A DNA stretch of 64,000 nt from Lepas anatifera (Eukaryota > Arthropoda > Thecostraca > Lepadidae). Location: positions 137,001-201,000 of the forward strand of contig JAOTON010001078.1 in assembly GCA_034440635.1 (NCBI GenBank), read 5' to 3'. Positions 9,540-64,000 of the stretch are shown here, one piece after another. The stretch's first letter is position 1; each line of letters begins with the position of its first letter. The position numbers were made by a program, and so were the translations under genes. Under the pieces are notes generated by a model that saw nothing but the letters and a program-made list of their open reading frames with translations, had not been told where the DNA came from and did no database searches.

Positions 9540-10891
9540 ATGTTTGCCGTGTCAAGGACGAACCTCCTGAAGGAGTTGCGATCTAGATCCGGAGTTTTGG
9601 GTATACTTGCGGTCTCTACGTGCAAGAAGGACGCGGTTTGTGGCGAAGAGCGAGTCCCAGTGTCGCGGAGCGTGACGGATGCCATGCAGGATGTAAGACT
9701 CGCCTTCGCCAAGCCGCCGAACATTCTCATCCACCATGGCGACAGTCACGGCCAAGGTCGCCTTCGACGTCTGGTGACATCTATCGTGGGAACAGCGAAC
9801 TACACTGTATACGACCTGCCGTTGGCGGCGCCACCCGTCTGGGTGGACAACACTTCGCTGCTGGTGGTTTCCGGTGAACTAAGCGCCGCAGTTTCGGCGC
9901 AGGTGGCGAAATACATACAGCAGGGCGGGGCTGTGTTCGCGCTGACATCTAGTCTCAAACTTCCCGAACTCGTGGAGGCTTCAATGGATGTAAACGTCAA
10001 CGGTGACGGGTTTCTCATGACATACCGTAACCATAGCAACGTTCCGTGTCGATATAGTGGCTCCAGATTGCGTTGCTTTCAAACTGCGTGTTCCGAAGGA
10101 AGTATTAAACTGAGCTATCCGGTTATGTGTGAATCTCAGCCCCCCGGAAACGTACCTCGTGAGCACGGCAGTGAAAACGACCAAAGTCCACATTCCTCTA
10201 AAGTTCCCACAGCTACACTCGGGGCGTCTCCCACGTCTGAGTCACCGCCATCGCCCAGATCGCCTTCCCTGCCGGGGAATCAGTGCAGTGCGCCGCCATC
10301 GGAGCTCTCTGCGCCGATACCCCCACTTCCCTGCCCGGCCATCGTGCGATGCTTCTACACCAAGTCAGGCGGCACGGTCCTGCTGGCGCAGCTGGCGTGG
10401 GATGTGACGTCACCGGAGCAGATAGCGTTGATTCGCTCTCTTCTGCAGCACGAGCTGGGCGTGAAGTGTGAGGAGCCGGCAGGCAATGAGGTTATATACC
10501 GAGCGGGCCATATACTGACGACAGACGACGCTGATGTGGCGAGATTCCGAAACACACCACCTCCCGCCAGGCGCGTGTCCCGCGCTACACCTCGTCACAT
10601 CATCCCACGACATCACCGCATCGGCTGACGTCCTCCCCATCACTGTGTCAGCCCCCGCTCCTGCTCAGTTCAACAGCCGACTATACCGCCGCCACCTGCG
10701 CACCAGTACCCCCCCTGGGCCGGTGTCTGGTGTACCTGCCGGTGGTGACCAGCAGTCTGGACGTGCTGCAGGACGGCCGTCTGCCGCACGGCGCGGTGGT
10801 GGTGAGCGACATTCAGACGCGGGGCCGCGGCCGCGGCGGCAACCGCTGGCTCAGTCCGGCCGGCTGCTGCATGCTGGCGCTAAAACTACAG
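9540..10891 (+). CDS. HLCS: HLCS exon 1 (with two apparent +1 frameshifts)
   Basis: Reads in one frame from 9540 to about 10560, in the next to the C run at about 10710, and in the third to the donor CAG|GTGAGC at 10892. The middle block (FNSRLYRRHLRT) and the last block (YLPVVTSSLDVLQDG) match consecutive parts of the family. Confidence 0.88.
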
Positions 10892-18165: not shown

Positions 18166-18664
<499 letters not shown>

Positions 18665-18816: not shown

Positions 18817-18978
18817 ATGACTGACAAGTTCGAGTTCTCCATTGACCGTGGCGGCACGTTCACCGACATCTACGCGCGATGTCCGGGCGGCCGCGTGCGT
18901 ACGCTGAAGCTGCTCTCCTCCGACCCTGCTCGGTACCCGGACGCACCTACCGAGGGCATACGCCGCATACTGCAACAG
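18817..18978 (+). CDS. OPLAH: OPLAH exon 1
   Basis: 54 codons from ATG, with the nucleotide-binding signature [18 protein letters not shown] and the end EGIRRILQQ. Donor GTTCGC is weak but the next exon joins in phase 0. Confidence 0.95.
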
Positions 18979-21900
18979 GTTCGCATCAGGCTGGTACCAG
19001 TGTGAAAAAACACCGTCGTTTCCGTTATTTAACACCCACGGGAGGGGCGTTATGACTTGAGAATTGGAAAGTATATCGAGCGTGGATCAGAGCATAGGTA
19101 TTACCTTCCCTTTATATGCCAGTACCCTCATCTTGAAACTTGGAAGTATTGGGAATGATAGAAAAGGATGGCGAATGATAGTCCCTGCGTGTGGCGGGGA
19201 CCTGCTAGGAATCACGTAGGTGTTTGTTTTGGGGTGTTTTGGCCGGACAACCAGTGAACCGTATTCTTCACCACACATTGACGTAGGTGTTTGTTTCGGG
19301 GTATCGCCGCCGAAAAACACGTGAACCGTATCATTCTTCACCACACATTGACGTAGGTGTTTGTTTCGGGGGATCGTCGCCGGACAACCAGTGAACCTTA
19401 CTATTCTTCACCACACATTGACGTAGGTGTTTGTTTCGGGGTATCGCCACCGGACAGCCAGTGAACCGTATTATTCTTCACCACACATTGACGTAGGTGT
19501 TTGTTTCGGGGGACCGTCGCCGGACAACCAGTGAACCTTAGTATTCTTCACCACACATTGACGTAGGTGTTTGTTTCGGGGTACCGTCGCCGGACAACCA
19601 GTGAACCTTAGTATTCTTCACCACACATTGACGTAGGTGTTTGTTTCGGGGTATCGTCGCCGGACAACCAGTGAACCGTATCATTCTTCACCACACATTG
19701 ACGTAGGTGTTTGTTTCGGGGTACCGTCGCCGGACAACCAGTGAACCTTAGTATTCTTCACCACACATTGACGTAGGTGTTTGTTTCGGGGTATCGTCGC
19801 CGGACAACCAGTGAACCTAGTATTCTTCACCACACATTGACGTAGTTGTTTGTTTCGGGGTATCGCCGCCGAAAAACACGTGAACCGTATCATTCTTCAC
19901 CACACATTGACGTAGGTGTTTGTTTCGGGGGTACGGCCGCCGGACAACCAGTGAACCTACTATTCTTCACCACACATTGACGTAGGTGTTTGTTTCGGGG
20001 GTATCACCACCGGACAACCAGTGAACCTTAGTATTCTTCACCACACATTGACGTAGGTGTTTGTTTCGGGGGATGGTCGCCGGACAACCAGTGAACCTTA
20101 GTATTCTTCACCACACATTGACGTAGGTGTTTGTTTCGGGGTATCGCCGCCGGACAACCAGTGAACCTTACTATTCTTCACCACTTGTTTTTTTTAGGTT
20201 CATGGCGCTGGTAACTAGATAATATTTTTGTCGAATTCTGGGTCACGAAGGATATTTCAACGCGTTTTATAATAAATTGTTACCTCATGACTATCCTTTT
20301 TCTGCTAAGTGCTGAGAGTTAGTTGCTTATGTGTGCTTGTAGGCAGTTCAAAATCACGTAACGCCTGTTTTGTGATTTTTCCTCGCCCTTTTTACTATGT
20401 AACGTTTTTGACGCCAATGTGTAACCGTTAGGTACTTGCCCTTGCGTTACGTATTTAATGGCCGGTCCCTTGAGGTTGCGCCAATTGGAGGCCATAAAAA
20501 ATAGCGCTCACTGCGTTACTGACGGAGCTAATGGTTAAAATGCCCGCCTGTGTGCTACTTGGCAGAGGCATAATACGACATAGATGACCGTTGGAATTGA
20601 CGGCCGAGAGAAAGTCGATGATTGGTCCCATCACACCAGTGTCCCGGCGAATCGGCGCACTCAGCGTCAACTCCCGCTGCCGCTGGTCACAGTACCTGGC
20701 TCTGCCTATTTTGGAATCAGGGCGTGACATCGGTACATGGTGGACCGGACGGGGTTCCAGGCAGCTACGCGCAGAGTGGTCTCATTTCCCCGCGGAACCG
20801 CAGGAACGAGACATTAACCGTCAGCCGACCTCCTTCCCAGGTCTGACTGTTCTTTAGATGGTGCATTTTCTTCCGAGCTAAATTGTCCTTTCTTGATCTT
20901 GGTGCGTTTTATTTACACACAGCCGGCTCGGACTAGTTTGTCCCGTCGCGGACGTCGTATGCATAAATTTATTGAGAAAAAGAAACTTGGAAAATGATAG
21001 CCAACCTCCCAGGAATGGAGGAATGCTTACAATTTCGTGGAGTTCACCGGAATAATGGTAACCGAGGTCGGAAGTCTAGTGCGCAAGGTTGCCATTCCTG
21101 GATATTCTCAGACCATAATCCAAAAGGCCACAGCCACATGGACCTCAAGATGTTGTGCAGGTCCTTATTAGTCCCGAGGTGTCAGCTTTGGCCGCCTCTG
21201 TCCCCCTTCGTAAAATAGCCTGAGAAGTCGCTGTGTACGCTAGAAGTACGCTAGGGATGATCATGCCACCGCTGGGGGAGAGGCGCTCAATCATTTTCGA
21301 TCGGTGCGAGACAAACCACCGAGCTCTCGGAAACGGACCGGCAGAATGGAAGGTTCTGCATCCGGATGCGTTACTGAAACTTTTTCAGTTGTCAGGGAGC
21401 GAGCCTATCATCATTGGCCCGTTTGTATTCTCCAGACTGCCGGCCGCTACATATCAGGCCTGGGTTCCAAGCCGTTATGAGAATTGAAAATACCAATGGA
21501 TCCTGGCATGGACAAACTTTGTGCCGAGTTAAACCAGTCCACTCCTTTTGCCCGCGCTTTCCTCACTCCCTGGTGGGCTGTGGTCGGGAGCCTAACTCCG
21601 GCATGAATAATCACGACACGTAACGTTACATGGCTTTTTCGGGAGCGAAAACTTCCAACGTGGATTTTGTGCGAGAGTTAAGAGTAGTTCAGATTTAGAA
21701 TTTGTGTCTTTGAAATCAGTGGCCCTGGGTCAACAATATCCAATCGCATTCCAAATTGAGTTCAGAACTTTATTATGACAGCAGAGCTGCAGAAAGGGCT
21801 TTTAGTCGAAATGTGGGATTGCGCAGCCTTTTTGTACCACCAATCGATGGCCATAGGGGAAAACGCGAGGTGAAAGAATTAGCTCGATCAAATGGGCTCA

Positions 21901-24900: not shown

Positions 24901-27900
24901 TCAACGCCAAAAATTTGTAAAATTGTTCAAAAATGATACCTGGATGTCTACATCACTCCAGCTCACTGATTACCTGCAAGCTAATAATGAAATTATTTGA
25001 AATTTGCATGGTTTGCTCTATGGGAGAAAACAATTTGTTTTATTCGATATTGTCACCGGACCTTCATGCATACTGCATTCCCATTGACGAAGATATGCTA
25101 GCTTTCCCTGTTCTCCTGGTTGGAGGAGTAAAGACATGTCTTGGTGCGAACCCAATAGCGGGGAGACTATTACCTGCGTGGACGTCCTGGCCAGTGGCCT
25201 CCAGTTTGACCAGCGCTCGTACACCCCCGGCAGGAGACGGGCCGCCCGTTCCCTCAAGGCTCCCCCATCGACACCAGCGGGATCGCCTCCATCCGGATGG
25301 GAACCACGGTGGCCACCAACGCGCTGCTGGAGCAGAAGGGGGCGCCGATGGCGCTGCTGGTGACGCGCGGCTTCCGAGACGCCCTCCACATCGGCACTCA
25401 GGCGCGACCCAACATCTTCGACCTGGTGAGGGCAGCCGCTGCCGAGGGGCCAGGGCGGAGCTGCACCGCTCCTTTTTGATTGGGTGTGTGGGGGGTTGTT
25501 TTAGAGATTGGGGGTAGTTCTAGAGCCCGGTTTGACCTTGACGAATGGAGGTTTATTTTATTATATTTTCGTGTGACTGAATTCGGGGTGCAGAACAGCA
25601 TGAATGTGTATTCTGTAAACGGAGCGGTCTCCCTGACTGGCCAGGATTGTATTTTTACCGTGGTAAAACTAGTTTTGGGTATAAAAAAACAGTTTTACAC
25701 ATTTAAACTGGCTTACAACGGTATAAAAAACTGAGTGGAACTAGGAGAAGCGGGGCAGGTAGAAAATATTCGGTAAATTCGACAAGACCTTCTGATATCG
25801 GCGCAGAGCTGAGGGTGAGGAAGCTTCTAACAGTACCTGTATCATTTCGCAACTCCTAGGGGGGAGGCTTTTCAGGAAAATAATTAATATGTTTAAGCTT
25901 TCTAAATTCCAATGTCATTATAAGATTTTTAAATCTTCATACGCCAAGAACTCGGTAGACTAAATAATGTTTGGCGACGTCGTCAGTCGTCACTTACGAA
26001 CACGGCAGTTAATGTAAACAAATTATCGAAGGAGATGAGCTGCAAATCGGTTAGTAAACAAATCAAACAGATTGCTTAGCACGTATTTGGCTCTACTCGA
26101 TTTTTATATAGGTTAGTAAACTTGGAGATGATGAGATTGTTCCGATGGCTGATCATGATGAGACAATTTTTTGGGGATTTCCTGACTGGGTGGTCGAAGT
26201 ATCGGATCGTCGCTGAGCATTTAGGATTAGCGGATGGATAGTAATAATACAGTCAACATCAGCACGTAGGATGCGGAATCAAACTATTAAATAATTATGT
26301 CGCTTTTGATCACCTTATCCAATAGCCGGTGAATGCTAACGGACTGCGCATGCGCTTGAAACTCAATAATTAATGCATGCGATGATTCCACTCCGGTACC
26401 GAAAAGTTTTCATAAGCCACCTTTCTCATGAGCCACCTTCCAGGTTAACACGTTGCTTTGTCCCCTCCCCCAAAAAAGCTGGCTCTCTGGATTTCTTACA
26501 TGGATAAGAGTAAAAATGAAAAGACAAAGGAAAGAGCGAGAAGTACTCGCCTCTCCAATAGCTAAGGTGAACTATCAGAAGTAAGTTAGTCCTGGGAAGT
26601 ATGATTAAAAGAGCAAACGTCGTTTCCAACAATACTCCTGAAGAAAGTAGAAAAAGGTTTAATTTGGTAACGAACACCGGGAGGTGGTGGAGGTGGATGA
26701 ACACGTGCTGACAGTCGCCTCCCACAGTCGGCGGCGTGTCCGGACGTGCTGTACCGGGAGGTGGTGGAGGTGGATGAACACGTGCTGACGCTCCCCTCCC
26801 ACAGTCGGCGGCCTGTCCGGACGTGCTGTACCGGGGAGGTGGTGGAGGTGGATGAACACGTGCTGACAGGCCCCTCCCACAGTCGGCGGCCTGTCCGGAC
26901 GTGCTGTACCGGGAGGTGGTGGAGGTGGATGAACACGTGCTGACGCCCTCCCACAGTCGGCGGCCTGTCCGGACGTCCTGTACCGGGAGGTGGTGGAGGT
27001 GGATGAACACGTGCTGACAGTCCCTCCACAGTCGGCGGCCTGTCCGGACGTCCTGTACCGGGAGGTGGTGGAGGTGGATGAACACGTGCTGACAGTCCCC
27101 TCCACAGTCGGCGGCCTGTCCGGACGTGCTGTACCGGAGGTGGTGGAGGTGGATGAACACGTGCTTACGCCCTCCACAGTGGCGGCCTGTCCGGACGTGC
27201 TGTACCGGGAGGTGGTGGAGGTGGATGAACACGTGCTGACGCTCCCCTCCACAGTCGGCGGCCTGTCCGGACGTCCTGTACCGGGAGGTGGTGGAGGTGG
27301 ATGAACACGTGCTGACAGTCCCCTCCCACAGTCGGCGGCCTGTCCGGACGTGCTGTACCGGGAGGTGGTGGAGGTGGATGAACACGTGCTGACAGTCCCC
27401 TCCACAGTCGGCGGCCTGTCCGGACGTGCTGTACCGGGAGGTGGTGGAGGTGGATGAACACGTGCTGACGCTCCCTCCCACAGTCGGCGGCCTGTCCGGA
27501 CGTGCTGTACCGGGAGGTGGTGGAGGTGGATGAACACGTGCTGACGCTCCCCTCCCACAGTCGGCGGCGTGTCCGGACGTGCTGTACCGGGAGGTGGTGG
27601 AGGTGGATGAGCACGTGCTGACGCTCCCTCCCACAGTCGGCGGCCTGTCCGGACGTGCTGTACCGGGAGGTGGTGGAGGTGGATGAACACGTGCTGACGG
27701 TCCCCTCCCACAGTCGGCGGCGTGTCCGGACGTGCTGTACCGGGAGGTGGTGGAGGTGGATGAACACGTGCTGACGCTCCCCTCCCACAGTCGGCGGCCT
27801 GTCCGGACGTGCTGTACCGGGAGGTGGTGGAGGTGGATGAACACGTGCTGACGCTCCCCTCCCACAGTCGGCGGCCTGTCCGGACGTGCTGTACCGGGAG

Positions 27901-30900
27901 GTGGTGGAGGTGGATGAACACGTGCTGACACTCCCTACACAGTCGGCGGCCTGTCCGGACGTGCTGTACCGGGAGGTGGTGGAGGTGGATGAACACGTGC
28001 TGACGCTCCCCTCCACAGTCGGCGGCCTGTCCGGGCGTGCTGTACCGGGAGGTGGTGGAGGTGGATGAACACGTGCTGACGTCCCTCCACAGTCGGCGGC
28101 GTGTCCGGACGTGCTGTACCGGGAGGTGGTGGAGGTGGATGAACACGTGCTGACAGTCCCCTCCACAGTCGGCGGCGTGTCCGGACGTGCTGTACCGGGA
28201 GGTGGTGGAGGTGGATGAACACGTGCTGACGCTCCCTCCCACAGTCGGCGGCCTGTCCGGACGTGCTGTACCGGGAGGTGGTGGAGGTGGATGAACACGT
28301 GCTAACAGTCCCCTCCACAGTCGGCGGCGTGTCCGGACGTGCTGTACCGGGAGGTGGTGGAGGTGGATGAACACGTGCTGACACTCCCTCCCACAGTCGG
28401 CGGCCTGTCCGGACGTGCTGTACCGGGAGGTGGTGGAGGTGGATGAACACGTGCTGACACTCCCTCACAGTCGGCGGCCTGTCCGGACGTGCTGTACCGG
28501 GAGGTGGTGGAGGTGGATGAACACGTGCTGACGCTCCCCTCCCACAGTCGGCGGCGTGTCCGGACGTGCTGTACCGGGAGGTGGTGGAGGTGGATGAGCG
28601 GTTGATTCTGGCGTCAGAGCGGTGTGAAATGCAGCACCAGTACCGACGCGTCACCGCCGCCTCCGGTGGGTTCTGAAGCAGATGGACGAGGTCTTACCTG
28701 TTGTGTTTTAGAGAGGGAGCGTTGTTTTATTGTTTGCGTGTTTTTCACTTTGAGGGAGTGTCCCACTTTTATAATGGGTTTTTAATTAAGATTGTAATTT
28801 TGTAGAGCGTGTCGAGAAACCACTATTGCAGGTTCTGTGTGTCGCCGCTGACTGACAGGTCAGGTTCTGTGTGACCTGACTCTGACAGGTTAGGTTCTGT
28901 GTGACGCCCCTGACTGTGACAGGTCAGGTTCTGTGTAACCCCTGACTCTGACAGGTCAGGTTCTGTGTGACCTGACTCTGACAGGTCAGCCTCTGTGTGA
29001 CGCCCTGACTGACAGGTCAGGAGCTGCTGGTGGAGCGTGAGCCGGACCTGGCGTCGCTGGAGCCGCAGCTGCAGAGTCTGCTGAAGCGGGGCATCACCAG
29101 CCTGGCGGTCGTCCTCATGCATGCCTACCTGTGAGTGGCCGCGGACGTGTCTGTGAGTGTGCACTGCTGTAGATCCACTGACACCGTGTACCTGGGAGAT
29201 GACGCCCGGCGGTGACGGCTGAGGTCAGACACATGACCCCGGTGGTCGCTCCTGCAGTTACCCGGAGCACGAGCGGGCGGTGGGGGCGCTGGCCGAGCGG
29301 CTGGGGTTCGACCAGGTGAGCCTGTCGTCGACGGTGATGGCGATGGCTCGGCTGGTGCCGCGCGGCCTCACCACCGCTGCCGACGCCTACCTCACCCCCT
29401 GCATCCGCCAGTACCTGCAGGTACGCCGCCCCCTGCCGCCGACGCCCAGCTCGGCCCCTGTCTCTTACCGGCGCTGTATAGTCTTCTACATTTTGGCTAG
29501 GTTTGTGCTCGGCCTTTTCAAGCGGTATACATTATTGTTTCAATATTGTGTGTATAGACGTGCATTTGAATGCTTCTTGGATTTCGTTTTGTTGCCTAAA
29601 TGCCGTGTAGAAGAAGGCTGATCTTTTGGCAAGATACTGAAAATCAATACTGACAAATTCATACCAGAGCACGTGGGCTATTTAAGTGTGCTGTCCCTTT
29701 TGTCGTTATACATATGTTCTATTGCTTCGCTTAGTGCACTGCTTAGCGCTGCAATTACTGCGTTTCTTATGCACTTGTGCTTGTTACCGTTACCATGTCC
29801 AGCGTCTTCTTCCTTCGTTCTGTTGGTCATGATTCTGCTGCTCAACCTCTTAGTCCTATCAGGAGACGATAATTATGCGAGACCCCTATGGCGGATATGG
29901 TTTTTAGTTTGTGGCCGCCTTTCCAAACATTTGCCTATTGTCAATTACTTCTGCCAGGTTAGCCGCCAATCTGTTTTTACCTGTCGAGGCCTTACAATCG
30001 CTTCGGTGTTTGGCCTCCGCCGCTGCGGCTAGGCCGCGGAGAGGCGTCAGAACCCTTATCAAGCACAGCGGTTTTGAAATTATTTACAGTTACCGTGCCT
30101 TTCGCTGGAGATGTGTTGAGACAAAACCATAAATACTCAATAGATTTTGAATCACGCATGCACAAACCAACATTCACTTACAAATGGATTCTGTATACAA
30201 ACATAAACGTTCTTCATATCCTCCCCATGCACGCGTGCTGATATGCCCGTTAAGTTGGTAGTTGGTGCGGAGAATTTGAACCGTGGGCGTGCTACCCAGG
30301 AGACGGGTATCGTTCCCGTGAGCTACCCAGACTACAAGTGCTCTGTCTGTGCCGTAGTCTGGTCCCACCTCGCCTGTGTTGTACCTGCTTTCAGAGCTTT
30401 AGTTCTGGCTTTCTCAATCAGCTGCGGGACGTCAATGTGCTCTTTATGCAGAGTGACGGCGGGCTGACCACCATGCAGAGGTAAGCCGCGCTGGCCGAGG
30501 TTTCACGGCATGTGCCTACTCACCGCGTGTGTCCTGCGGCAGACTGGTCTAGCAGACTGATCTATTGCCAGTGTTCCCTCAGGGGTGCTGTTAAACCCTT
30601 CTCTACCCAGTTCTATTGTCAGGCTTCCCTCAGGAGTGCTGCTTAACCCCATGGCTCGATGACTAACTCAAGGCGGACCACCATGTCTGACGTGCCTTCT
30701 TTGTTGAGCCTCATCTTGATATGGGATTCAGTGGAGGTCTTCCGGCGCTTTAGCTTTCTCAGCTATATGGCTTTCTAACTGCTTTGCATTTCGCCTGATC
30801 CAGTGGTATCTAAACTCCGCTCCAGTATCTAAACACTGCAGCTAGATGGCGTAACTACGTGATCCGCAGTATAACCACTTATGCAAAAGTGTCTAACTCA

Positions 30901-33900
30901 TATGCGCCCCGTTGTGCGATCTGACGGTGTCGTGCCCAGTCACCCGGGACCGGACCCTCCGTGTTCTTCCGTTGTTCTGTCACCATCTCAGAGTTTGCGG
31001 CATGTGCTTGTCCAGCCGGGCGTGACTATGACCGGCCACAGGTGCGGCTGAGTGGTCCAGCCTGGCTTCAGACATGGTCGGGAGTGCCGACACATCAGTG
31101 TGCTCTGTGCGGCTTGTGACGAAAGGGAAGTGCCCTGTCGGACGTCAGAGACAACTGACATTAACGAGTGGCCGCGGGCGCCGTGTTCTATTATGCGAGG
31201 AGCATGAACCTGCGTGTCTTAGGAACTGACAGTCCTACCAGCGGGAGAAGAATGTACTGTGGTTCCTTTCGTGATTAACCTTTCCGGGAGAGCGTGAGCA
31301 AGTGGTTGGTCAGGTCTGGAGTTTTTGTGCAATGTTATTAAAGATGAAAATCGAATCTCATTTGTATCTCGTTTCATCAGCCAGGTCATCAGTGGAAGAT
31401 GTCTGTATGTTTTTCATGATATTGCAACTTGAAGATCTTGGAAGATGGCTGGCGCGTTCCCCGAACTTGCATATGAGGAGGGGGACGTCCTCCCAAAATT
31501 ATGGGGACTTTGGTTATTTTACATTTTCACCCAATTACCTGCGTGGACCCACGTGGATGTACCAAATTCACTTTTCTGAAGTGTACCGGTAGCGTTTTCA
31601 AAAGCCATAACGTTCAAACTTTGTCTCCCACCCTCCCCCCAGCCACCGCCAGTCCGAGGCCCCCCCTAGTAAAAATTTCATGGTGACGCCCCTGCAAATG
31701 AGCTCATCTAGGTGAGAGACTGAGGTACGCCTAATACATGTAGTGGGCATACTAAACGTACTGCAATTGCTCTCAAAATTATGCGGCCATCTAGTTCCAT
31801 GTGGTGGCCAGATTACCCTGTAGGATGCGGGCGAATGGTTGGTGGCGGAACGATTTGTTTATTCGAAATTCCACAGAAAACCAATGATGATAGTTGTTGT
31901 TTCCAGGACAGATATTGGGGCTGAATTGAGTTCAATAAGTCATTGTAAATGACTTCACCGTCGTTAGAGGGTCTGCGTCTCGTGCGTTAACCGGCGTGGC
32001 GCGCCGGCAGTTGTAACTGGTGCGTTAACCGGCGTGGCGCGCCGGCAGTTGTAACTGGTGCGTTAACCGGCGTGGCGCGCCGGCAGTTGTAACTGGTGCG
32101 TTAACCGGCGTGGTGCGCCGGCAGTTTCCGCGGCAGCCGCGCCATCCTGTCGGGCCCGGCCGGCGGCGTGGTCGGGTACGCCCGGACCACACACGGCCGC
32201 CAGACGGAGCGCGCCGTCATCGGCTTCGACATGGGCGGCACCAGCACCGACGTCAGCCGCTTCGACGGCGGCTACGAGCACGTGTTCGAGACGACGACGG
32301 CCGGGGTGGTGATCCAGGCGCCGCAGCTGGACGTCAACACGGTGGCGGCCGGCGGAGGCTCGGTGCTGACCTTCCGGGCCGGGATGTTCGTGGTCGGGCC
32401 GGAGTCGGCCGGTGCCCACCCAGGTGAGCCCGCGCACGGCGACCAGCCGCACGGTGGAAGGTATACACTGTCGTCTAGTGGTGGACGTGGTTAAGCTTTC
32501 TGCTTCTGTCTGTCGCTGAATTGTGGACGAGATGGGTCTGGTTACATATATTTGCTTAGCCCCCAAGGAACCCGCATGTTCGAGATATTAGCGCTACCTG
32601 CCGCTGTCGTGTTGCACAGTTTCTGTCCCGTGTGATTAGTGGTACCTGCGCTGGTGTGTTGGCACACTCTGTCCCGTGCATGACCGGCCTCTGGGGTGGG
32701 TGTGGGGTGTGCGTGCGGTCGGGCTGTGACCGCGTTCCCGGCCACCAGGGCCGGTCTGTTACAAGAAGGGCGGTCCACTGACGGTGACCGACGCCAACCT
32801 GGTGCTGGGCCGCCTCCTGCCCGAGTTCTTCCCGCGCATCTTCGGTCCCAACGAGGACCAGCCCCTGGACGCCGACGCCGCTCGTGCCCAGTTTCAGACC
32901 CTCACTGACGACGTAAGCCTGCGCCCCAGACCACCACGACAGTTAAAGTCAGCGCCAGTTCCAGATGCCCAATGGTGATTTCAACCCTCTACTCCGTTTA
33001 CCCCTCGTCCGTTTCTAGAGCCTCACCCTTGCTGATAGTCCGATCATAGTGCCAGTCCTGACTGGTTAGTACGTTCACCTGTTTTAGAAGGCGCTCTCCT
33101 CGTCCTGTGTTCCTGGTATCGCTGGGGCGGCAGCGGGAGGACGGGGGACGGCTGAGGCGTCTGTTTTGTATAACCAGCGGCCAGACTCGGCTCTGTGCCA
33201 GGGACGCCTCTGACGGTTGACCCGCTCCGTGGCCCCTCCCCGGCAGGTGAACCGGTTCCTGCAGTCCGAGGCAGGCGGCGGCGCCGCGCCCATGTCCGTG
33301 GAGGAGGTCGCCATGGGCTTCATCCGCGTGGCCAACGAGACCATGTGCCGCCCGATCCGCTCCCTCACACAGGTGCGGCACGAGACTGCAGCGCTGCCCT
33401 TGTTCCGGTGGTCCTTTATTGGGTTTATATCTTGCAATTTCTGGCGTTGCTGAAATGTTTTGACCTGTTTGATATTCTTGGAGATGACACTAAAGATATA
33501 TATTCAACGCTCAATTTTTCATCTAGATAAAAATGTAGGTACGAAGATAGCCGGACAAGTTGCACGATAATCGCAGCGTCTCTCCCGTCTATCTGGGGTA
33601 ATCAGTGCATGTGCTTCCTTACTTTATGGCTTTTTATTAGGCGTTCTGTGCATAGCACCTTTGCCCGCCTCTAAAGGAGTGTGTGGGAGAATTTTAGAAT
33701 TTTGTGTGAGGGCAAGCTACGTTAGTCTGTTAAAGCAATGGGAGTTATTTCAAGTAATGGGTTGCAAGATGTTTTAGCTTGCAAATGGATCGGTCGTGGC
33801 AATGGCATAGCCATGCCAAGGGAGGTCTTTTAATAAGTTTAGACCCGCAGAGTGCGAAGGTTATTTCTGTGGTTGAAGACCTTAAATTTAGAATTTGAAA

Positions 33901-42900: not shown

Positions 42901-45900
42901 TTGAGGTGGGTAACAGAAAATTATGCGTGCTCAGACAGGTCAATCAGTGGTGAATACATCTAGAATTAAGGATAGTTGATAGCAAATGTAATCTAAATAC
43001 AAGGTCGGGTGCCGTGAAACGGGTGGAGTAAGCGTCGTCTCAAGACTACCGCAGGCCGTTGCCTTGATGCTTGTTTGTGGGCGAATCTGCCCTCACTTAA
43101 CCAGCCGACTTGAAACCTACCGTGCCTTCATCGGATGTAACGTCTATCGTCACATATATTAAGGATGATTGTCTCCTCACACCTGTGGCGCGTGTTCCAG
43201 CTACAAGAAGGAGTTCGGTTTCGTGATCGGCGACCGGGCAGTAATCGTGGACGACATCCGTGTCCGGGGCGTGGGCCGCTCCGGCGTGGAGGACGACCAC
43301 GAGCTGTCGCCCTCCGCCACACCGCCCACCCCCAAAACGGTAGGCACCACCGCCCCGGCCGACGCCGTCCGGTCCCGAAACGGTAGCTGGAACCGCCTGA
43401 ACCACTGACAACCGCCCACGCTCAGTATGATGGGTGGAATGAGTGCTTGTGCACCGATCGCGTTATTTGTGTAAGGTTACATGCTTCGATGACCAAAATG
43501 AAAGCCTGTCTGTATGTTTGAGCTGAACCGTGGAGAGAAGTCGTGAAGTGAACGCCGTCAGATGTGGGGTGTCCAGCTCCAGATTTCTGGTCTGTTGGAC
43601 AATGTCCATTGCCAGGTTTACAACCGTAAGAAACTAATGAATGCCGCTGTACTGTGGTGAAGCGGAATACCTGAGCCGTGGACGGCGGCGGGTAATGGAC
43701 ACTGTTGGTGCGAGGGGTTTATTTCGGAGGCTTGTCAAAGGTGAGGGTCTGGAATCTTCGGCCCTCCGTCCCACCATTGTGTTGGTGTGCCATAAAGTGA
43801 AGAGGTGTGATGCCCGAGTTTGACGATAATTTCCTTTCAAATAGGGCTGTAGGTCAGGCTTAAATTGCGTCGACAGAGGCAAGCCACAATCCGTGTCACC
43901 ATGGGATGAGACTGTTACGAAACATGTTGTTTCCTGTTTCTAACTTTGGTCTGGTGCTTTAGCTTTGAATCCTGACACAGGCCGCAGTACACTGTGGTAC
44001 CGGCACTGCTGTGTTGAGCCGTGTGCCGCTGCACCCCCAGGAGGCGGCGGTGTTCTTCGAGGGCGGCGTCCGCAGCGTGGGCGTGTACCTGCTGGAGCAG
44101 CTGGGCGCCGGGGACCAGGTGGCGGGACCGGCCGTCCTCATGGACGCCCTCAGCACCATCCTGGTGGAGCCCGGTGAGCAGCGCTTTTTTACATGTTGAC
44201 TGAATCCTTGTATTTTAGCCTAATTACACCATCATCTGTATCTTTGTTTGTCACAGACTCTGTTTCTGTTCCATGTGAAAGACTACTTCTGTGTTCCACC
44301 TCTGTGATCTCTGTGACAGACTGTACCTCTGTGTTCCATGTGACAGACTTGGTCTTTGCCCCGTGTGACAGATGGTTTCTCTGTTCTCTGTGTCAGACCG
44401 TGTCTCTCTTCTGTGCAACAGACTGTGCCTCAGTGTTCCGTGTGACAGACTGTTCCTCTGTTCTCGTGTGACAGACAGGCCCCCTGTTCTCTGTGTATCA
44501 GACTGTGTCTCTGTTCTGTGTAACAGACTGTGCGGCCACCATCACGACTCGGGGAGACGTGCGGATCCAGGTGGGCTCCGGCCAGCGCGGCCTCCATCGG
44601 CGCCGAGCTCGACTCCATCCAGCTCAGCATATTCTCACACCGCTTTATGAGCCTGGCCGAGCAGATGGGCAGGTGAGAGGTAGGGCAGGACACGTGGACA
44701 CGGCGCGGGAGAGTGACACGCACAGCGGACATGCACGTGTAGACAGGAATCAAGAGAGTAGGTAGATATTGGAAGGGGGAGTCGTACGGCAAATATATTG
44801 TGTTTATGTGCTTGCGCTTTGCTCTTACCATGATTAGCTTCGCGAGTGTAACAAATCGACCTGGAACATTGTGGTTGTCTTATAATGTATTCGTCAATTG
44901 CCCTATTATTATCAGGTCTGAATTTATGTACGGGAGCTCACCAGTGGGTTGTGAATTGTGGCCTGGGCCGCTGTTGGCCCGCTCACAGGAGCGACTACAT
45001 TACGATACCGCTTTGTCAGGGTTCTCCAGCGGACCTCCATCTCGACCAACATCAAGGAGCGTCTGGACTTTTCGTGCGCGCTGTTTGGTCCGGACGGTGG
45101 CCTGGTGTCCAACGCGCCGCATATACCCGTCCACCTGGGAGCCATGCAGGAGGCCGTACAGTACCAGGTGCGATGTCAGAGACTGTACGGCATCCGGTGC
45201 TGTTTAACGCTGTCAGCCCCTGTTTTGGATGGAAAGTCAAATCTATGGCAGTTGGCAAAAATAACATTTCATTTTCCTATCTTGTTAGGCCGTACTTCAT
45301 CTAGGGGCATCGCCGTGTTCGTATTGTAATCTGGTTTCGTGGTACCGGCCCTTTAGATAAACTAGCAAAAAGTAGATATACTAGCAGATGTACTAGCATG
45401 GGGCTGGCGAAAGAGAAAATCTCCAGCTCAGAGTAGGTGGTGTGGCTGTATCTCGCCGCGCGCCGTCTGTGGCTCCGTCCGCGTTCACAGGCCGGAGACG
45501 GCTGTCTGTGCGTCAGATGCGGGTTCGGGTTGATGACGGCTGTCTGTGCGTCAGATGCGGGTTCGGGTTGATGACGGGTGTCTGTGCGTCAGATGCGGGC
45601 GCGGGTTGATGACGGCTGTCTGTGCGTAAGATGCGGGCACAGTTGATGACGTCTGTCTGTGCGTCAGATGCGGGTTTGGGTTGATGACGGCTGTCTGTGC
45701 GTCAGATGCGGGTTTGGGTTGATGACGGCTGTCTGTGCGTCAGATGCGGGTTCGGGTTGATGACGGCTGTCTGTGCGTCAGATGCGGGTTCGGGTTGATG
45801 ACGGCTGTCTGTGCGTCAGATGCGGGTTTGGGTTGATGACGGCTGTCTGTGCGTCAGATGCGGGCGCGGGTTGATGAGGGCTGTCTGTGCGTCAGATGCG

Positions 45901-48900
45901 GGTTCGGGTTGATGACGGCTGTCTGTGCGTCAGATGCGGGCGCGGTTTGATGACAGCTGTCTGTACGTCAGATGCGGGCACGAGTTGATGACGGCTGTCT
46001 GTGCGCCAGATGCGGGTTTGGGTTGATGACGGCTGTCTGTGCGCCAGATGCGGGTTCGGGTTGATGACGGCTGTCTGTGCGTCAGATGCGGGTTCGGGTT
46101 GATGACGGCTGTCTGTGCGTCAGATGCGGGCGCGGGTTGATGACGTGTGTCTGTGCGTCAGATGCGGGCGCGGTTTGATGACAGCTGTCTGTACGTCAGA
46201 TGCGGGCACGGGTTGATGGCGGCTGTCTGTGCGCCAGATGCGGGTTTGGGTTGATGACGGCTGTCTGTGCGTCAGATGCGGGTTCGGGTTGATGACGGCT
46301 GTCTGTGCGTCAGATGCGGGTTCGGGTTGATGACGGCTGTCTGTGCGTCAGATGCGGGCGCGGGTTGATGACGTGTGTCTGTGCGTCAGATGCGGGCGCG
46401 GTTTGATGACGGCTGTCTGTGCGCCAGATGCGGGTTCGGGTTGATGACGGCTGTCTGTGCGCCAGATGCGGGTTCGGGTTGATGACGGCTGTCTGTGCGT
46501 CAGATGCGGGTTCGGGTTGATGACGGCTGTCTGTGCGTCAGATGCGGGCGCGGGTTGATGACTGTGTCTGTGCGTCAGATGCGGGCGCGGTTTGATGACA
46601 GCTGTCTGTACGTCAGATGCGGGCACGGGTTGATGGCGGCTGTCTGTGCGTCAGATGCGGGTTCGGGTTGATGACGGCTGTTTGTGCGTCAGATGCGGGT
46701 TCGGGTTGATGACGGCTGTCTGTGCGTCAGATGCAGGCGCGGGTTGATGACGTGTGTCTGTGCGTCAGATGCGGGCGCGGTTTGATGACGGCTGTCTGTG
46801 CGCCAGATGCGGGTTCGGGTTGATGACGGCTGTCTGTGCGTCAGATGCGGGTTCGGGTTGATGACGGCTGTCTGTGCGTCAGATGCGGGTTCGGGTTGAT
46901 GACGGCTGTCTGTGCGTCAGATGCGGGCGCGGGTTGATGACGTGTGTCTGTGCGTCAGATGCGGGCGCGGTTTGATGACAGCTGTCTGTACGTCAGATGC
47001 GGGCACGGGTTGATGGCGGCTGTCTGTGCGTCAGATGCGGGTTCGGGTTGATGACGGCTGTTTGTGCGTCAGATGCGGGTTCGGGTTGATGACGGCTGTT
47101 TGTGCGCCAGATGCGGGTTCGGGGTGATGACGGCTGTCTGTGCGTCAGATGCGAGCGCGGGTTGATGACGGCTGTCTGTGCGTCAGATGCGGGCGCGGGG
47201 AACCGACATTCGGCGGGGGGACGTGCTGCTGTCCAACCACCCGGCGGCCGGCGGCTCCCACCTGCCCGACCTCACCGTCATCACACCAGTCTTCCACCGG
47301 TCAGTCGTACCGTCATCCACCGTCATCACACCCGTCTTGTTTATTTGTTTATTAAGAGTTGATGAGCAACAGGGTAAGCCCCAGTGACAGCTAGTCCAGA
47401 TGGTGAAACACTCACAGTACAGTACTATAAAAGGTGATGTACATACAACAAGGACACGATAAAATATAACTAATGGAGCGACATCAGGCATAATACATGG
47501 TAAAAATGTTTCACAAAAGCAGCACCATTATAAATAAACTAAGTCGTACCGACCTTACCTTAATGGCGACATATTGAGAACTTGAAGGAGACTCAGCCTG
47601 ACCAATCTCAGATTGCGTCACTCCGCCGGTCAATAGAGCTGGAGAAAAGAATCGCGCCAGTTTGAGAATGTGATGCAAGTTTCTATATTGAAGCGTCATG
47701 TTCCACTTCACTCTAACTGAGCGGGCTGAGAACTCGAGTCCCGTTTGAGAGCGCCTGTCCCTCACTGGCTGTGATTTTCAGTGACTCGGAGACGCCGATA
47801 TTTTTCGTGGCGTCGCGGGGTCACCACGCCGACATCGGCGGCATCACGCCCGGCTCCATGCCGCCCCACTCCAAGTCGCTCTCTGAGGAGGGCGCCTGCT
47901 TCAAGTCCTTCAAACTGGTGGAGGGCGGGGTCTTCCAGGTGGGTGGAGAACCAGGCACCCGTTTTGAACTGTCGCTTCTTCTGTTTTCTGTTTTTTTATG
48001 CAGTAAATGTTTTGCGGTTTCAACTAGGTTTAATTCCGCTTTATTGAATTCCATGTTAATGCTGGTAGGGTATCTCTGGTGCGGCACATGTCCCAGCAAC
48101 CCCAGCAATAGCTGCATCCTCATGCTAATACCGAGACTACCAGTGATCTGCTGCTTGGCGACCTACTTTAATCAAAAGTTGAAAGATAGAATCCGCACAA
48201 CCTCTCTCTGCCGTGTGTCTGGGCCAGTGTAACATGTCCTCTCCGTGTGTCGGGGCCAGTATAACCTCTCCCCGCCCTTGCGTCAGAAGGCGGTGGTGAT
48301 GCCGTCTCACCCTGTGTCAGCTAATGTAACCTCTCGCCGCCTTGTATCAGGAGGCGGCGGTGACGGCGGCGCTGCAGGCACCCGGAGACATCCCCGGCAG
48401 CTCCGGCACCCGTAATCTGCGCGACAACCTCTCCGACCTGCGCGCCCAGGTGGCCGCAAACCAAAAAGGTAGCCACCAGACAGAACTCCAGCAGTGGAGC
48501 CGGCTGACGGGCTTCAGAGGCTGAGCTCGTCCTCTGGAGCTGTTGCTCGTGTGTTGTGGAGTTGTTGCAGGTCAAAGTTGAGCTGCTCCAGTGCCGTGAT
48601 CATAACAATTCAATTCTCTCTTGGTCTCATTGTATCTGTCTGTAGTCAGTGTTGGTCTCAGTATGTCCATCACGCTCAAAAGTTTTTGTCTCAGTGCTCC
48701 GTCTCCCGGCAAGGTATTGGCCTGGTCTCGAGCTGTATATCCTCTCTCCCATCCCTCCATGTCTCAGTGCTCCGTCTGCCGGCAGGGTATCGGCCTGGTC
48801 TCGGAGCTGATTGAACAGTACAGCCTGGAGGTGGTGCAGGCGTATATGGCGCACGTGCGGCGAGCTGCCGAGCTGGCGGTGCGGGAGCTGCTGCGGGAGG

Positions 48901-51900
48901 TGGGCGCGCGCGCCCGCAGCCGCTGCGGAGCTGCGCAGCTCACCTTCACCGACAGCATGGACGACGGTACAGAGCTGCAGCTCACCGTCGAGATCGACGA
49001 GGAGGCCGGCAGTGCCACGTTCGACTTTAGGTCAGAGCAACTGGAAGGGGCGATGGGAAGTCCGAATTCATAAGGGTGCTGGATGAGCAGATTAACATCC
49101 GCCAATAGCGTCGTGGTTGCATTAACGCCGCCTTCAACAAGTTTGCTGGTAGAAACGGCGGCAGTGCGCTGGTGAGGGGACAGGCTGCGGACGTGTGACC
49201 GGTCTTGCGTACCGACAGCGGCACCGGCTACGAGGTGTGGGGTAACTGTAACGCCCCGCGGGCCATCACCCTGTCGGCCCTCATTTACTGCCTCAGGTGC
49301 ATGGTGGGACACGACGTCCCGCTCAACCAGGTGAGCACCGATGCCGCTGACAACTCTGGCGGAACCCCCCCAATCTCGTACTGTTGTGGTCTCACTGCAT
49401 GGCTGGTGAGGCTGCTGAAGCGTGTACGCAGTGGCCTGTAAGTTAGACGACTGTAAGTAAGTTCAATACGCTCGTATGATTAAAAAAACGGGAATACGAT
49501 TACGTCTCATTGCAGAGCGTAATAAGCCTTTCTATGTGTTTTTTTCTTCAAGTGGCTCTCTGTGGTTTGGCCCCATTGAGTTTATTGGCGACCATTGGTT
49601 CCGTAGGTTTGTAAACTTCCGCTGTCACCGTGACCTGCGGTGCACGTCCTGTACGTACCAGCGCCGCTGTCGGGTGCCGGCAGGGGTGTCTGGCGCCGAT
49701 CCAGGTGCGGATCCCGGCCGGCTCGATCCTGGACCCGTCGGAGGGCGCTGCGGTGGTGGGCGGCAACGTGCTGACCTCTCAGAGGGTGGTGGACGTGGTG
49801 CTGGGCGCCTTCCGCGCCTGCGCCGCCAGCCAGGGCTGCATGAACAACGTCACCTTCGGCGACGAGCTGTTTGGCTACTACGAGACGGTGGCTGGCGGCG
49901 GCGGAGCGGTGAGACCGGGAATGCAACGGATGGGGCTGGACGTAACCTGTTGTGGGAGCTATTTCATACAGTTTCAGTTGTGTTTTAAATATAATGTGGC
50001 ACCTTAGCCGTGGAGTTTAAGCTGAGGTAGTCTTGCGGACCGAAAGCCTTCGGTTATATATTTCACTTGTCCTGGAACTCATCGATTTCAAACCGAATAT
50101 GGCCCCGCACCTGCCTTTCCGTGCGCTTTTCTATTTTAAATTTAAATAGAAACGAAATATGAAACTCCCGTGACCGATGGCTCATTTCAAATCCCGCGAA
50201 GGTCATTTAAAGTTTTGCGTTCCCGCGAAACCATGGAACTCGATAAAGCTAAGTCGTGTTCAAATGTTTCACAATAGTCCTTGGCTGGGGCTACCTCGTT
50301 GTCGTTACTGGACGTTCAGATTGAATGTGAAAGTAGGATAAAGTGTTTTTTTACATTGGTCAAGTCTTAGTCTCTTGATCGAACGAATTATAAAAAGGTC
50401 TTGGTGCACTAAGTCCATTTGAACTACAGTTCTCACGATTTCCTGCGCCCGCGAGGTCTCTCGCTGCTCATGGATACAATTTTACACATTAGCGACCCGA
50501 CCCGACCCTACCGTTCCGCTGATAAAACGCCGATAGCTCCTCGAATAGGTGTCGGACAGGAATGAAACTTGGCAGTGGCAGACTCAGACTTTCATTTCGG
50601 CGGGGGAGGGGGTCAATCCCACCCCAATTTTACCCGGGATAACCTCCTACTATGTGGTTACTAGGGCCACTCAGAAATTTCGGGGAGGAGGCTTGAACCC
50701 CCAGTCGCCTCCCCCCTCTTCATGGGTATATCTCCGCCACTGACCCATGGGTAGCAGCATCAATTCAGTTCATGCGTCTAATTTTCGAGAGAAAAATCGT
50801 AACCCTACGTACGAGGGATCTGTGTTCTCCCAGACCTTGCAGCACACTCCGAATGAGGATTTTGAGAGTTTCGAGGGCTGGAAAAACGTAATATTCGCCG
50901 CCGGACTGCGCGTGAGCTTTGAGAGAAAGTCTATATTTCCGAATATTTGTTTGACTGTAGTTGATGGTGTTTACACCGACGAATTTGTCTCTTCAGAAAG
51001 TACAAAAGGAAACGTTGAATCATTTATCAAATTGTTTCCCTGATGGTTTGCTTATCCTGTTACATTTAACTTGCCGATAGGTAAGACATTCGTTTAGCAC
51101 GGCAGGACTTTATGTGTGATGTCGTTGCGTTTATGTTCGAGGATGAGCATAAATCATCCAATGAAGTCTAGGCCATTGTTTCACTTGTCAATTGGAAACA
51201 GAAGCTTCCGTTCGGTAATCGTCAATAAAGGCGTGTTACTGGTGTTTATTCCGTTTCGCCGAAGCCACGTGCCCTCCATCGCTGCTGAGTGGTTTGTATG
51301 GCGCGGGATGCCTGATCGTTCTGCGCTCTTCCCAGTCCCCCAGGTCCGAGCGTTCTGCGCTCTTTCGAGTCTCCTATGTCTGAGCGTTGAATGTTTGCAA
51401 CTAGGGGTTTCTTGCACTTAATTCGGCTTCGTCGAGTGAACCCTGTAACATTGCTGCTGGTCAGCTGAGCTGGAGCCGCCACTTCGGTCGATATCCAGTC
51501 TGTGGGCCGCCACCTGGCAGGTGGCAGGAGGCAGCGGCCGCCGTGACCGCCCCTGCGCCGACAGGGCGCCGGCTGGGAGGGCCGCAGCGGCGTGCACAGC
51601 CACATGACCAACACGCGCATCACCGACCCGGAGATCCTGGAGGCGCGCTACCCGGTGCTGGTGCGCCAGTTCTGTCTGCGGCCCCACTCCGGCGGCGGCG
51701 GCCGGCACAGGTCAGCGGGGGCACCGGGGGAGACGGTGTCAGGTCAGCGGGGGCACCGGGGGAGAGGGGTCAGGTCAGGTCAGCGGGGGCACCGGGAGAA
51801 ACGGGGTCAGGTCAGGTCAGTGGTGGCACCGGGGAGAGTGGGTCAGGTCAGGTCAGTGGTGGTGCCGGGGAGAGGGGGTCAGGTCAGGTCAGCGGTGGCA

Positions 51901-54900
51901 CCGGGGAGAAACGGGTCAGGTCAATGGTGACACTGGGGGAGAGGGGGGTCAGGTCAGGTCAGCGGTGGTACCGGGGGAGAGGGTCAGGTCAGTGGTGACA
52001 CCGGGGGAGAGGGGGTCAGGTCAGGTCAGCGGTGGCACCGGGGGAGAGGGGGTCAGGTCAGGTCAGTGGTGGTTCGGGGGAGAGGGGTCAGGTCAGGTCA
52101 GTGGTGGCACCGGGGGAGAGGGGGTCAGGTCAATGGTGGCACCGGGGAGAGGGGGTCAGGTCAATGGTGGCACCGGGGGAGAGGGGGTCAGGTCAATGGT
52201 GGCACCGGGGGAGGTCAGGTCAATGGTGGCACCGGGGGAGGTCAGGTCAATGGTCGCACCGGGGGAGGTCAGGTCAATGGTGGCACCGGGGGAGGTCAGG
52301 TCAATGGTGGCACCGGGGAGGTCAGGTCAGTGGTGTTACAGGGGAGAAACGGGTCAGGTTAGTGGTGGCACCGGGGGAGAGGGGGTCAGGTTAGTGGTGC
52401 ACGGGGAGAAACGTGGTCAGGTCAGTGGTGCGCGGGGAGACGGGATAGGGTCAGGTCAGGTTAGTTGTGCACGGGGGAGAAACGTGGTCCGGTCAGTGGC
52501 GCACGGGGAGACGGGATAGGGTCAGGTCAGGTTAGTTGCGCACGGGGAGATGTGGTACCCCGAAGTTGTGACCGAAGGAGGCGCAGGGAATGTTTTCCGC
52601 ACCAGCTCTGGTCACGACGCGGTGATAGTAGACTAAATCCAATCAAACTCTGTGATTTTTTCAGTAAGCATGAATCGTAACTGTGGGATTGCCTTTCACC
52701 GCCATGAAATCGCTTCCAAACAATTTCGACACTTTGCATCGCATATGCCATTGCAATGTTGGCAGGCTTATATAATGTCCTGCCTTAATTCTAACCTCCC
52801 GGCCTCCATTCACAAGTCTGGATCGAGTGTTTTTCCCAGCGCGCTGCAGTCTGGTTCGGCCCCAGTCTGTTGTACTGGTTACTCCGGCGTCTGCGCGGTG
52901 GCCGGCCGCGGCGGCGTGTTGTAAGCCTGCGTCCGTGTCTGGTCCTCAGGGGCGGCGATGGCGTGGTGAGGGAACTCACCTTCCGTAAGCCGCTGACGCT
53001 GTCGATTCTGACGGAGCGCCGTGTGTTCGCACCCTACGGAATGGACGGTAAGGGACTGTTCACTTGGAACCGCTGGAGGTCGGTGGATGATGCGGAGATC
53101 ACGATTTATGCTGAGCGATACGTTATTAAATGCCCAGGCTTTGCTGTCGCCGAGGTGACATTCAAAACGGGCATGGGAATCCATCGAGTATTGGCAGGGT
53201 TGGACTGCAAAGTCCTAGATTTTTCATTAATTTTGACGAATGTATTTGGATTTTCAAGTCTTTATTTAAAGAGGATTTTGGGGATTGGATTCCAGTCCAG
53301 TTGAATCGGATTATCACAGATCTGAGTTTAAAAATGATTTTTCCGGTTTTTTTTAATTATATCATGTTTCAGGCTTTCGAAGCCGTCAGTATATTCCTTG
53401 ACTGCTCAGCTTGCTTTGCGCTGACCTTTCAGTGGTTGGAAATCTTAAATGTCTCATAGGGGTTGCAGGTTTGGACTACAATCATTTTTCTCAGGATTTG
53501 CTGATGCCTGGAAGTCATTTAGCAGGCCTTAGTTTCTATTTTACAAAGCACGTTCTGGCAGTGGTAACTAACAGTATTCCAGTTGTACATGCTGATATCC
53601 AGGTTTCTGTTCGAAGCAAGACAATAATTTTGCTGTCGCCTTCCAGCTGTGGTGATTGATGAGTTTAACAGACAACTGGATCGACCAGCACTTTTAACTG
53701 GCTGACAATTAATTGGATGCGATTCGTCAGTTCTACGGAGCCAGTCGTGTTCCATTAGCCGCGAACTCGACAGTTTGAGGGAATATTCCTTGTTTCCATA
53801 GAAACACTTAGCCACAGCGCTCGGAGTCCGAGTGGGGCGGGTCCAGAGAGGTTTGATGTGTCTGAATTGGGCCGTCTGCGTCGTTTCCGGCGGCGTCGGT
53901 GATATTTCCGGGCGGCGGCGCGCGGCCGGAGCGGCGCGGGACGCGTGCTGCCGACTCAGCTGTTGTCCCCTGACAGGCGGGCAGCCCGGGCAGCGCGGCA
54001 GAAACCTGATGCTCAAGAAGGACGGCAGGACCATCAACCTCGGGGCCAAAACATCCGTCGAGGTGGAAACCGAGGTAACCTGCTAGTCTCGATGTATCTG
54101 CAGTTACAAAGAACAAGCTTTTAGATGTGTGAGAGGAGCTGTCCTGTCTTTGAAACCTGTAAATGATAATGAAATATCATATGGAGACGCGATTTTTATA
54201 TCTTGAGCCATTTTATGACCTATTCATGTGAAACATAAGCCTCGAAATCTGTGAGCGAAACCAGGAAACACGTGATACCCGTGTCTGTAGCGAGCAGAAT
54301 GATATGGCTGTCCGACAGACTGGCCGAACTGCGTGGTCAGCACTCCGGATACGTCCACTTGGACATGTTGTTGCAGTTGTTGGAGGGAAAATGTGTTTGT
54401 CACCCACTTTCAGTCGGATAGACGTTTTAGCTTTTAGCCAGGGACGGGTTGTAGCCTTAAGCTCACTTTTGGCTAGGGACGACACGGGGCGCTGGTCCCC
54501 TCTGATCGACCTTTCTCCTGCGAAGATACAAGGTCGCGCTATATGGCCAAGTCGCTGAAAGCGCCCTAAAACCCCAATACACGCGAAGATACAAGGTCTT
54601 CGCCGCTAATCCGAATTACCCATATGGCATCTCCTCCGCTAAATTTCCATGTGTTCGCAGAATTACAGCACTGACACCGTAACCTAGGCTGAGCCGATGA
54701 CTGAGGCTGACTTGGGTCCCGAAAATTATCCTTGCAAATGGCAGATTAGGCCTCACATTTAATTTATTTCGCAAAAGTCTTAAGAATTGTATTAAAAGAA
54801 CAAAAAGGTTAGAGTGGGAATCTGGAAAATGTGAATTTGGGCAGTAACTTTAAGATCGTGAGAAAACATTTTACGTAAAAAATATGTTTCTGGTTTCTAG

Positions 54901-59670: not shown

Positions 59671-64000
<4,330 letters not shown>

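Follow-up and report, generated by a model that had tools for sequence, protein, structure and literature searches.

Tandem arrays at 3' splice sites of the Lepas anatifera OPLAH gene as candidate mirage-type minisatellites

Tandem repeat arrays whose units contain a 3' splice site together with the first bases of the next exon were repeatedly observed in the 5-oxoprolinase (OPLAH) gene of Lepas anatifera, and arrays crossing 3' splice sites were also found in other genes of this genome. We propose, with a probability of about 0.6, that the OPLAH boundary arrays are mirage-type minisatellites, which would have begun as silent duplications of acceptor modules and then expanded.

The gene is located at 18817..55374 on the plus strand of the window, that is, of the whole 64,000-nucleotide stretch analysed, which is part of a 1.04-Gb assembly of 2126 contigs. 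Spliced alignment to the 5-oxoprolinase of Amphibalanus amphitrite (P0001) gave a model of 27 coding exons and 26 introns, in agreement with the intron count of the original prediction, and the proteins nearest to the product were those of A. amphitrite (70% of the draft) and Pollicipes pollicipes (77% over 85%). Two program-placed mini-exons of 11 and 2 bp, both at apparent 1-bp frameshifts, were removed from the model. These frameshifts are located in exon 16 (about 44560-44590) and, at a run of A, at the end of exon 20 (48460-48468), and they may reflect base errors, polymorphism or decay, all of which fit. The alignment to P0001 contained eight single-residue gaps, four of which were in exon 16 beside the apparent frameshift.

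Several other features were recognized in the window. A 646-aa intronless open frame at 6014-7951 on the plus strand, which we take to be NEK8/NEK9-like and which is perhaps a retrogene, encodes a protein kinase domain followed by RCC1 repeats (Pfam). A biotin-protein ligase gene, with a C-terminal frame containing BPL_LplA_LipB and BPL_C, is located at about 9525-12362 on the same strand, and no array of the TRF list was found in this stretch. Intron 9 of OPLAH harbors, on the minus strand (34388-39897), a non-LTR retrotransposon with long open frames, one of which contains reverse transcriptase and RNase H. A pure CT dinucleotide repeat of 880 bp was observed at 61102-61981, and a second CT-rich run (18168-18659) is located directly ahead of the OPLAH start.

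TRF identified 11 arrays in OPLAH (merged arrays, period of 9 or more), including six that cross a 3' splice site (introns 2, 3, 6, 12, 15 and 17), one that crosses a 5' splice site (intron 24) and four that touch no junction. The array of intron 2 (26676..28597; this and all the following OPLAH repeats are on the plus strand) has about 25 copies of a 76-bp unit that holds CTGAC, pyrimidines and CAG, and it ends 50 bases inside the exon. In intron 3 (28829..29021), a unit of about 30 bp (96-bp compound) includes 6 exon bases, in intron 12 (41371..41891), 6.7 copies of a 78-bp unit include 16, and in intron 15 (44301..44532), 9 copies of a unit of about 25 bp include 6. The array of intron 17 (45497..47193) consists of about 45 copies of a 38-bp unit with 7 exon bases according to TRF, and its best copies, which recur at 152 and 190 bp, contain 12-13 exon bases. 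The intron 6 array (31982..32126; 38-bp unit, 3.8 copies) ends at the 3' splice site with only 2 exon bases, perhaps by chance, and the exon sequence shared with the 3' arrays ranges from these 2 bases up to the 50 of intron 2. Diverged two-copy duplications, absent from the TRF list, include the 3' splice sites of intron 19 (48262..48363; 13 exon bases, 84% identity) and intron 20 (48688..48809; 24 exon bases, 92% identity), and the upstream copy at intron 20 has CAA where the exon copy has CAG. At the 5' splice site of intron 24, an array (51708..52550) has units of about 27-39 bp carrying CAG and GTCAG on the two sides of the junction, with 3 exon bases. A partial copy of the end of exon 18 is located 45 bp downstream in intron 18 (47280..47338); this match consists of 14 nt of exon end and zero intron bases, leaving the splice site outside. 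The arrays away from exons, in intron 1 (19214..20184; 70-bp unit, 13.9 copies), intron 7 (32587..32678; 48-bp unit), intron 9 (33885..33952; 14-bp unit) and intron 23 (51317..51388; 34-bp unit), were scored as misses.

For introns 2, 3, 6, 12, 15, 17, 19 and 20, none of 200 shuffles scored as high as the best match inside the intron of the window around the 3' splice site (p = 0.005), and the same result was obtained for the 5' ends of introns 18 and 24. Copies in register numbered 24, 2, 4, 7, 8 and 45 in introns 2, 3, 6, 12, 15 and 17, respectively, and 1 (the exon copy alone) and 2 at the diverged sites of introns 19 and 20. Boundary-spanning units are clear at seven 3' boundaries, two of which are two-copy, and at one 5' boundary. 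The original prediction of units spanning the 3' splice site in eight introns is borne out for introns 2, 3, 12, 15, 17, 19 and 20 and only marginally for intron 6, and that of repeats starting from the 5' splice site is borne out for intron 24 and not for intron 18; of the 10 introns (among 26) that it had counted as affected, eight are thereby clear cases, with intron 6 a borderline one and intron 18 lacking a splice-site copy. Judged by eye against the consensus, several units appear to hold a whole acceptor, with a branch-point-like sequence, a pyrimidine tract and CAG.

Blastn searches with ten OPLAH repeats (E 1e-4) against the window and 224 kb of other loci returned zero matches away from each repeat's own place, so the unit sequences are unrelated, as originally noted, and the exon portion of every unit is that of the local exon. 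Both observations argue against a dispersed satellite or introner-like element inserted at splice sites, an explanation that we consider highly improbable. The apparent frameshifts in two exons hint at leftover base errors, as might accompany false tandem duplication in the assembly; however, the copies differ among themselves (mean column conservation 0.95-0.97), compound periods are present (229 bp in intron 2 and the recurrences of intron 17), and like structure occurs on several further contigs, which leaves very little room for an assembly artefact. An unusual density of repeats in OPLAH was ruled out, with 11 arrays in 36.6 kb compared with 45 in 150 kb from 15 stretches (the 15 existing of 20 asked for), four of which flank the window.

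Two null models were used for the positions of the arrays. In the first, whole arrays were placed at random with a maximum of 80 exon bases, and in the second, one unit per array was placed (seed level), either uniformly or matched for GC. In OPLAH, the six 3' crossings among 11 arrays compare with 0.32 expected at seed level (P = 2.5e-6, the floor of the test), 0.66 expected after GC matching (P at the same floor) and 0.57 expected under full-length placement (P = 0.0005, again the floor). One crossing of a 5' splice site was observed, with 0.32 expected.

To these data were added ten further genes, each in part: ATP1A, SERCA, an ATP7-like gene, SPCA, PMCA, CCT2, CCT4, CCT6, CCT7 and CCT8. 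The genes were located by Pfam searches and picked blind to repeats; five of the ten contigs matching P-type ATPase genes were taken, and among the nine contigs matching CCT/HSP60 genes, most of the gene was taken from four and part of it from a fifth, the choice being made for compactness. Exon models were obtained by spliced alignment to protein sequences, and exons or edges regarded as unreliable were left out (L024 exon 9; L025 exon 1 and some edges; L026 exons 1 and 8-10; L028 exons 4-6; L031 and L032 exon 3; cut first and last edges), as were one wholly exonic array (L024) and the arrays beyond the reliable-exon span in L024-L028. Among the 15 arrays counted, five span a 3' junction; ATP1A has two of these, and SERCA, CCT2 and CCT8 have one each. 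The expected number was 0.79 under uniform placement (P = 0.0006) and 1.83 under GC matching (P = 0.018), the excess being modest after matching, and one of the 15 crosses a 5' splice site (ATP7-like gene, L026). The CCT8 piece (L033), the sole array of which crosses a 3' splice site, was chosen for exon density and added after the result for the other nine genes. For these nine, full-length placement was applied first and gave 4 crossings versus 1.58 expected (P = 0.058); seed-level placement, adopted afterwards, gave 4 of 14 arrays versus 0.61 expected under uniform (P = 0.0023) and 1.38 under GC-matched placement (P = 0.034). With TRF score thresholds of 30, 40 and 50, the nine genes had 4 crossings each time, for which full-length placement predicts 1.94, 1.73 and 1.57, respectively; a threshold of 80 left 3, with 1.41 predicted.

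Outside these counts, a degenerate 5' splice-site array follows exon 2 of the SPCA-like gene (L027, about 1653-1791). On the minus strand of the ATP1A piece (L024), two segments at about 230-334 and 1243-1338 both match ATP1A residues from 817 on, as if an exon had been duplicated or were mutually exclusive.

The eleven genes together contain 26 arrays, 87 3' splice sites and 82 5' splice sites. Eleven of the 26 arrays cross a 3' splice site versus 2.48 expected under GC matching (P = 5e-6), and two cross a 5' splice site versus 1.93 expected, which is no excess; counted by junction, 11/87 3' sites and 2/82 5' sites are crossed (Fisher P = 0.018). The original suggestion that separate events hit one type of position is supported, both by OPLAH and by the other genes. 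The suggestion that exon edges in general are favored holds at 3' splice sites and fails at 5' splice sites. OPLAH supplies most of the pooled signal and was itself picked for its repeats, and the ten other genes are the fair test; a difference between OPLAH (6/26 3' sites crossed) and the other genes (5/61) was not shown (Fisher P = 0.078).

GC matching lowered the pooled 3' excess from about 10-fold to about 4-fold, and GC content accounts for part of it. Composition might even be the whole cause, if arrays start in GC-rich DNA, exon edges are GC-rich and selection halts the spread into coding sequence. In line with this, the 45 arrays of the 15 stretches have 54% GC versus 47% in matched random segments, GC climbs from about 0.47 to 0.62 across 3' splice sites, and the expectation doubles under GC matching; the excess that persists after matching, together with the lack of one at the 5' splice-site edges of the same exons, nevertheless makes an effect of composition only rather improbable. 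A mutational hotspot linked to 3' splice sites, arising from R-loops, transcription-coupled breakage or a DNA structure of the branch point, pyrimidine tract and AG, and acting on top of tolerance, would fit an excess that is restricted to 3' junctions and survives GC matching, as well as the units that, by eye, contain entire acceptor modules. However, the coding strand of the edge arrays shows no consistent pyrimidine enrichment (pyrimidine fraction 0.46-0.61 in ten 3' arrays), no breakpoint motif was shown, and selection against duplicates of the 5' site could yield an equal asymmetry, so we entertain a hotspot only tentatively.

Coding-like sequence, called with a codon-usage score trained on OPLAH and the other genes modelled here, adjoins 7 of 86 array ends in random stretches of the same genome, compared with 1.6% of 4507 windows (P = 0.0005); against 3.32 expected after GC matching, the result is borderline (P = 0.045). 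Three of the seven flanks (L009, L013 and L014) are legible as exon edges, and the other four are not. At L009, about 26 copies of a unit with a branch-point-like sequence, CAG and 16 exon bases precede an exon with a weak C2H2 match below the Pfam cut-off. In L013, a VPS13-like exon (PDB match, E 1e-11) has 33 copies at its 5' splice site, and the L014 array stops just before the AG of a RING-H2 exon.

The 3' arrays, with units of 17-82 bp, end inside the exon at +2, 6, 6, 7, 8, 9, 16, 22, 33, 40 and 50 relative to the 3' splice site, and upstream ends are found at -15, -15 and then -67 and -70, with none from -14 to 0. Ends within the exon outnumber those within the last 60 intron bases by 11 to 2 (P = 0.022). 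Counted by base in seven genes (score of 36 or more), duplicated sequence covers 12 of 61 3' splice sites and 319 of 1951 intron positions, and 3 of 366 positions in exon interiors and 1 of 59 5' splice sites; by this measure, duplication is not more frequent at 3' splice sites than at positions within introns. The 3' excess concerns the end positions of arrays, not base coverage. The seed-level test was preferred because intron coverage is raised by long arrays and a junction at which an array was seeded always persists in the last unit, a choice that other readers might weigh differently. Survivorship could also shape these positions: if arrays originated uniformly and those anchored in exons escaped spanning deletions, the latter would persist longer. 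This would account for exon-anchored arrays without a hotspot, and exon interiors are indeed almost free of duplications, but it also predicts an excess at 5' splice sites and in arrays just outside exons, neither of which was observed in these small numbers, and we consider it unlikely.

The AG was kept in all of the in-register copies of introns 2 (24/24), 3 (2/2), 6 (4/4), 12 (7/7), 15 (8/8) and 17 (45/45) and in 1/2 of those of intron 20, counts that are biased upward as the copies were located by a core containing the junction. In the arrays of introns 2, 12 and 17, the AG columns show no variation, but neither do fractions of 0.73, 0.83 and 0.35 of adjacent column pairs, respectively. 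Selection on decoy acceptors was dropped as a candidate, since the AG columns are no better kept than other columns of the unit, and there is thus no sign that decoys are used or selected. No gradient of similarity toward the exon copy was observed along the arrays of introns 2, 12 and 17. The exon-proximal copy runs on into an open exon matching P0001. Reading from one unit upstream broke the frame or met a stop at introns 2, 3, 6, 15 and 17 (at introns 2 and 3, the cut tested lay away from the AG), and at intron 12 the frame stayed open from the next copy upstream. Judging from the protein alignment alone, OPLAH is probably spliced at the last, exon-proximal copy.

In the mirage-type reading that we favor, a local tandem duplication would copy an acceptor module, consisting of the branch-point-like sequence, the pyrimidine tract, the AG and the first 2-50 exon bases. 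Such a duplication would be silent because splicing would keep using, through exon definition, the copy adjoining the intact exon, leaving the mRNA unchanged, and the surplus copies could then expand intron-ward through slippage or unequal exchange. Duplications ending between the branch point and the AG would disturb the geometry of the acceptor and be purged, and duplications confined to the exon, unlike those spanning the acceptor, would change the message. Since other duplications would be purged, the surviving arrays near exons would be those that include the AG and end inside the exon, and the sharp exon end and the few ends just upstream of the AG would both follow from tolerance of acceptor-spanning duplications. 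Tolerance by itself falls short of explaining the number of 3' seeds beyond that predicted from length and GC; likewise, selection only, the alternative offered with the original prediction, accounts for arrays stopping inside exons but not for their excess over seed-level placement. What is left of the 3' excess may stem from a hotspot, from longer persistence of exon-anchored arrays or from selection that acts more strongly on 5' duplicates. It is conceivable, though doubtful, that a process specific to 3' splice sites, tied to transcription or splicing rather than composition, copied whole acceptor modules at a sizeable share of the introns (11/87 3' splice sites tested) independently of lancelets and would still be supplying decoy acceptors, lengthening introns and perhaps giving rise to new exons or introns.

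If true genome-wide, a lancelet oddity would reach arthropods, and tandem repeats could be said to prefer acceptor sites. The arrays would provide a natural test of how the spliceosome settles on one acceptor where as many as about 45 are nearly identical, and of whether introns grow and arise through tandem duplication of their splice sites. For annotation, repeat masking and gene finders may stumble on exon starts copied dozens of times.

The OPLAH arrays share features with ordinary GC-rich minisatellites, including GC-rich units, compound periods and a density like that in the 15 other stretches, but they differ in being placed at acceptor modules instead of at arbitrary positions. The gain of introns through tandem duplication of pieces bearing splice sites has been proposed in the Rogers model, Zhuo 2007 and Gao and Lynch 2009, as cited in PMC3087553; the OPLAH arrays resemble that process in that tandem duplication adds extra splice signals, and differ from it in that existing introns are enlarged and no newly formed intron was demonstrated. 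Among the matches listed in the literature search, none dealt with boundary minisatellites in arthropods. The original prediction knew of no named system that fits, but the mirages of lancelets have this structure. According to the reports (PMC3087553, PMC3902484), lancelet mirages are tandem units across the exon-intron boundary, 3' or 5', with lengths of 10-72 and 150-160 bp, for which the local exon is the source and in which many copies retain AG or GT; regular splicing is undisturbed, lengths vary between haplotypes and somatically, and the authors propose a role in intron gain. The OPLAH units likewise cross the boundary, come from the local exon and keep the AG in most in-register copies, 5' boundaries are also affected here (intron 24, the ATP7-like gene and the VPS13-like exon), and the unit lengths of our 3' arrays are bracketed by those of mirages. 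The arrays described here differ in their crustacean host, in reaching about 45 copies, in affecting eight introns, or nine if intron 6 is included, among the 26 of a single gene, in a measured excess that is confined to 3' splice sites, and in being known from one assembled sequence, compared with the reports on splicing and instability in lancelets. The OPLAH arrays would extend the mirage structure to a new phylum, with a measured preference for 3' splice sites.
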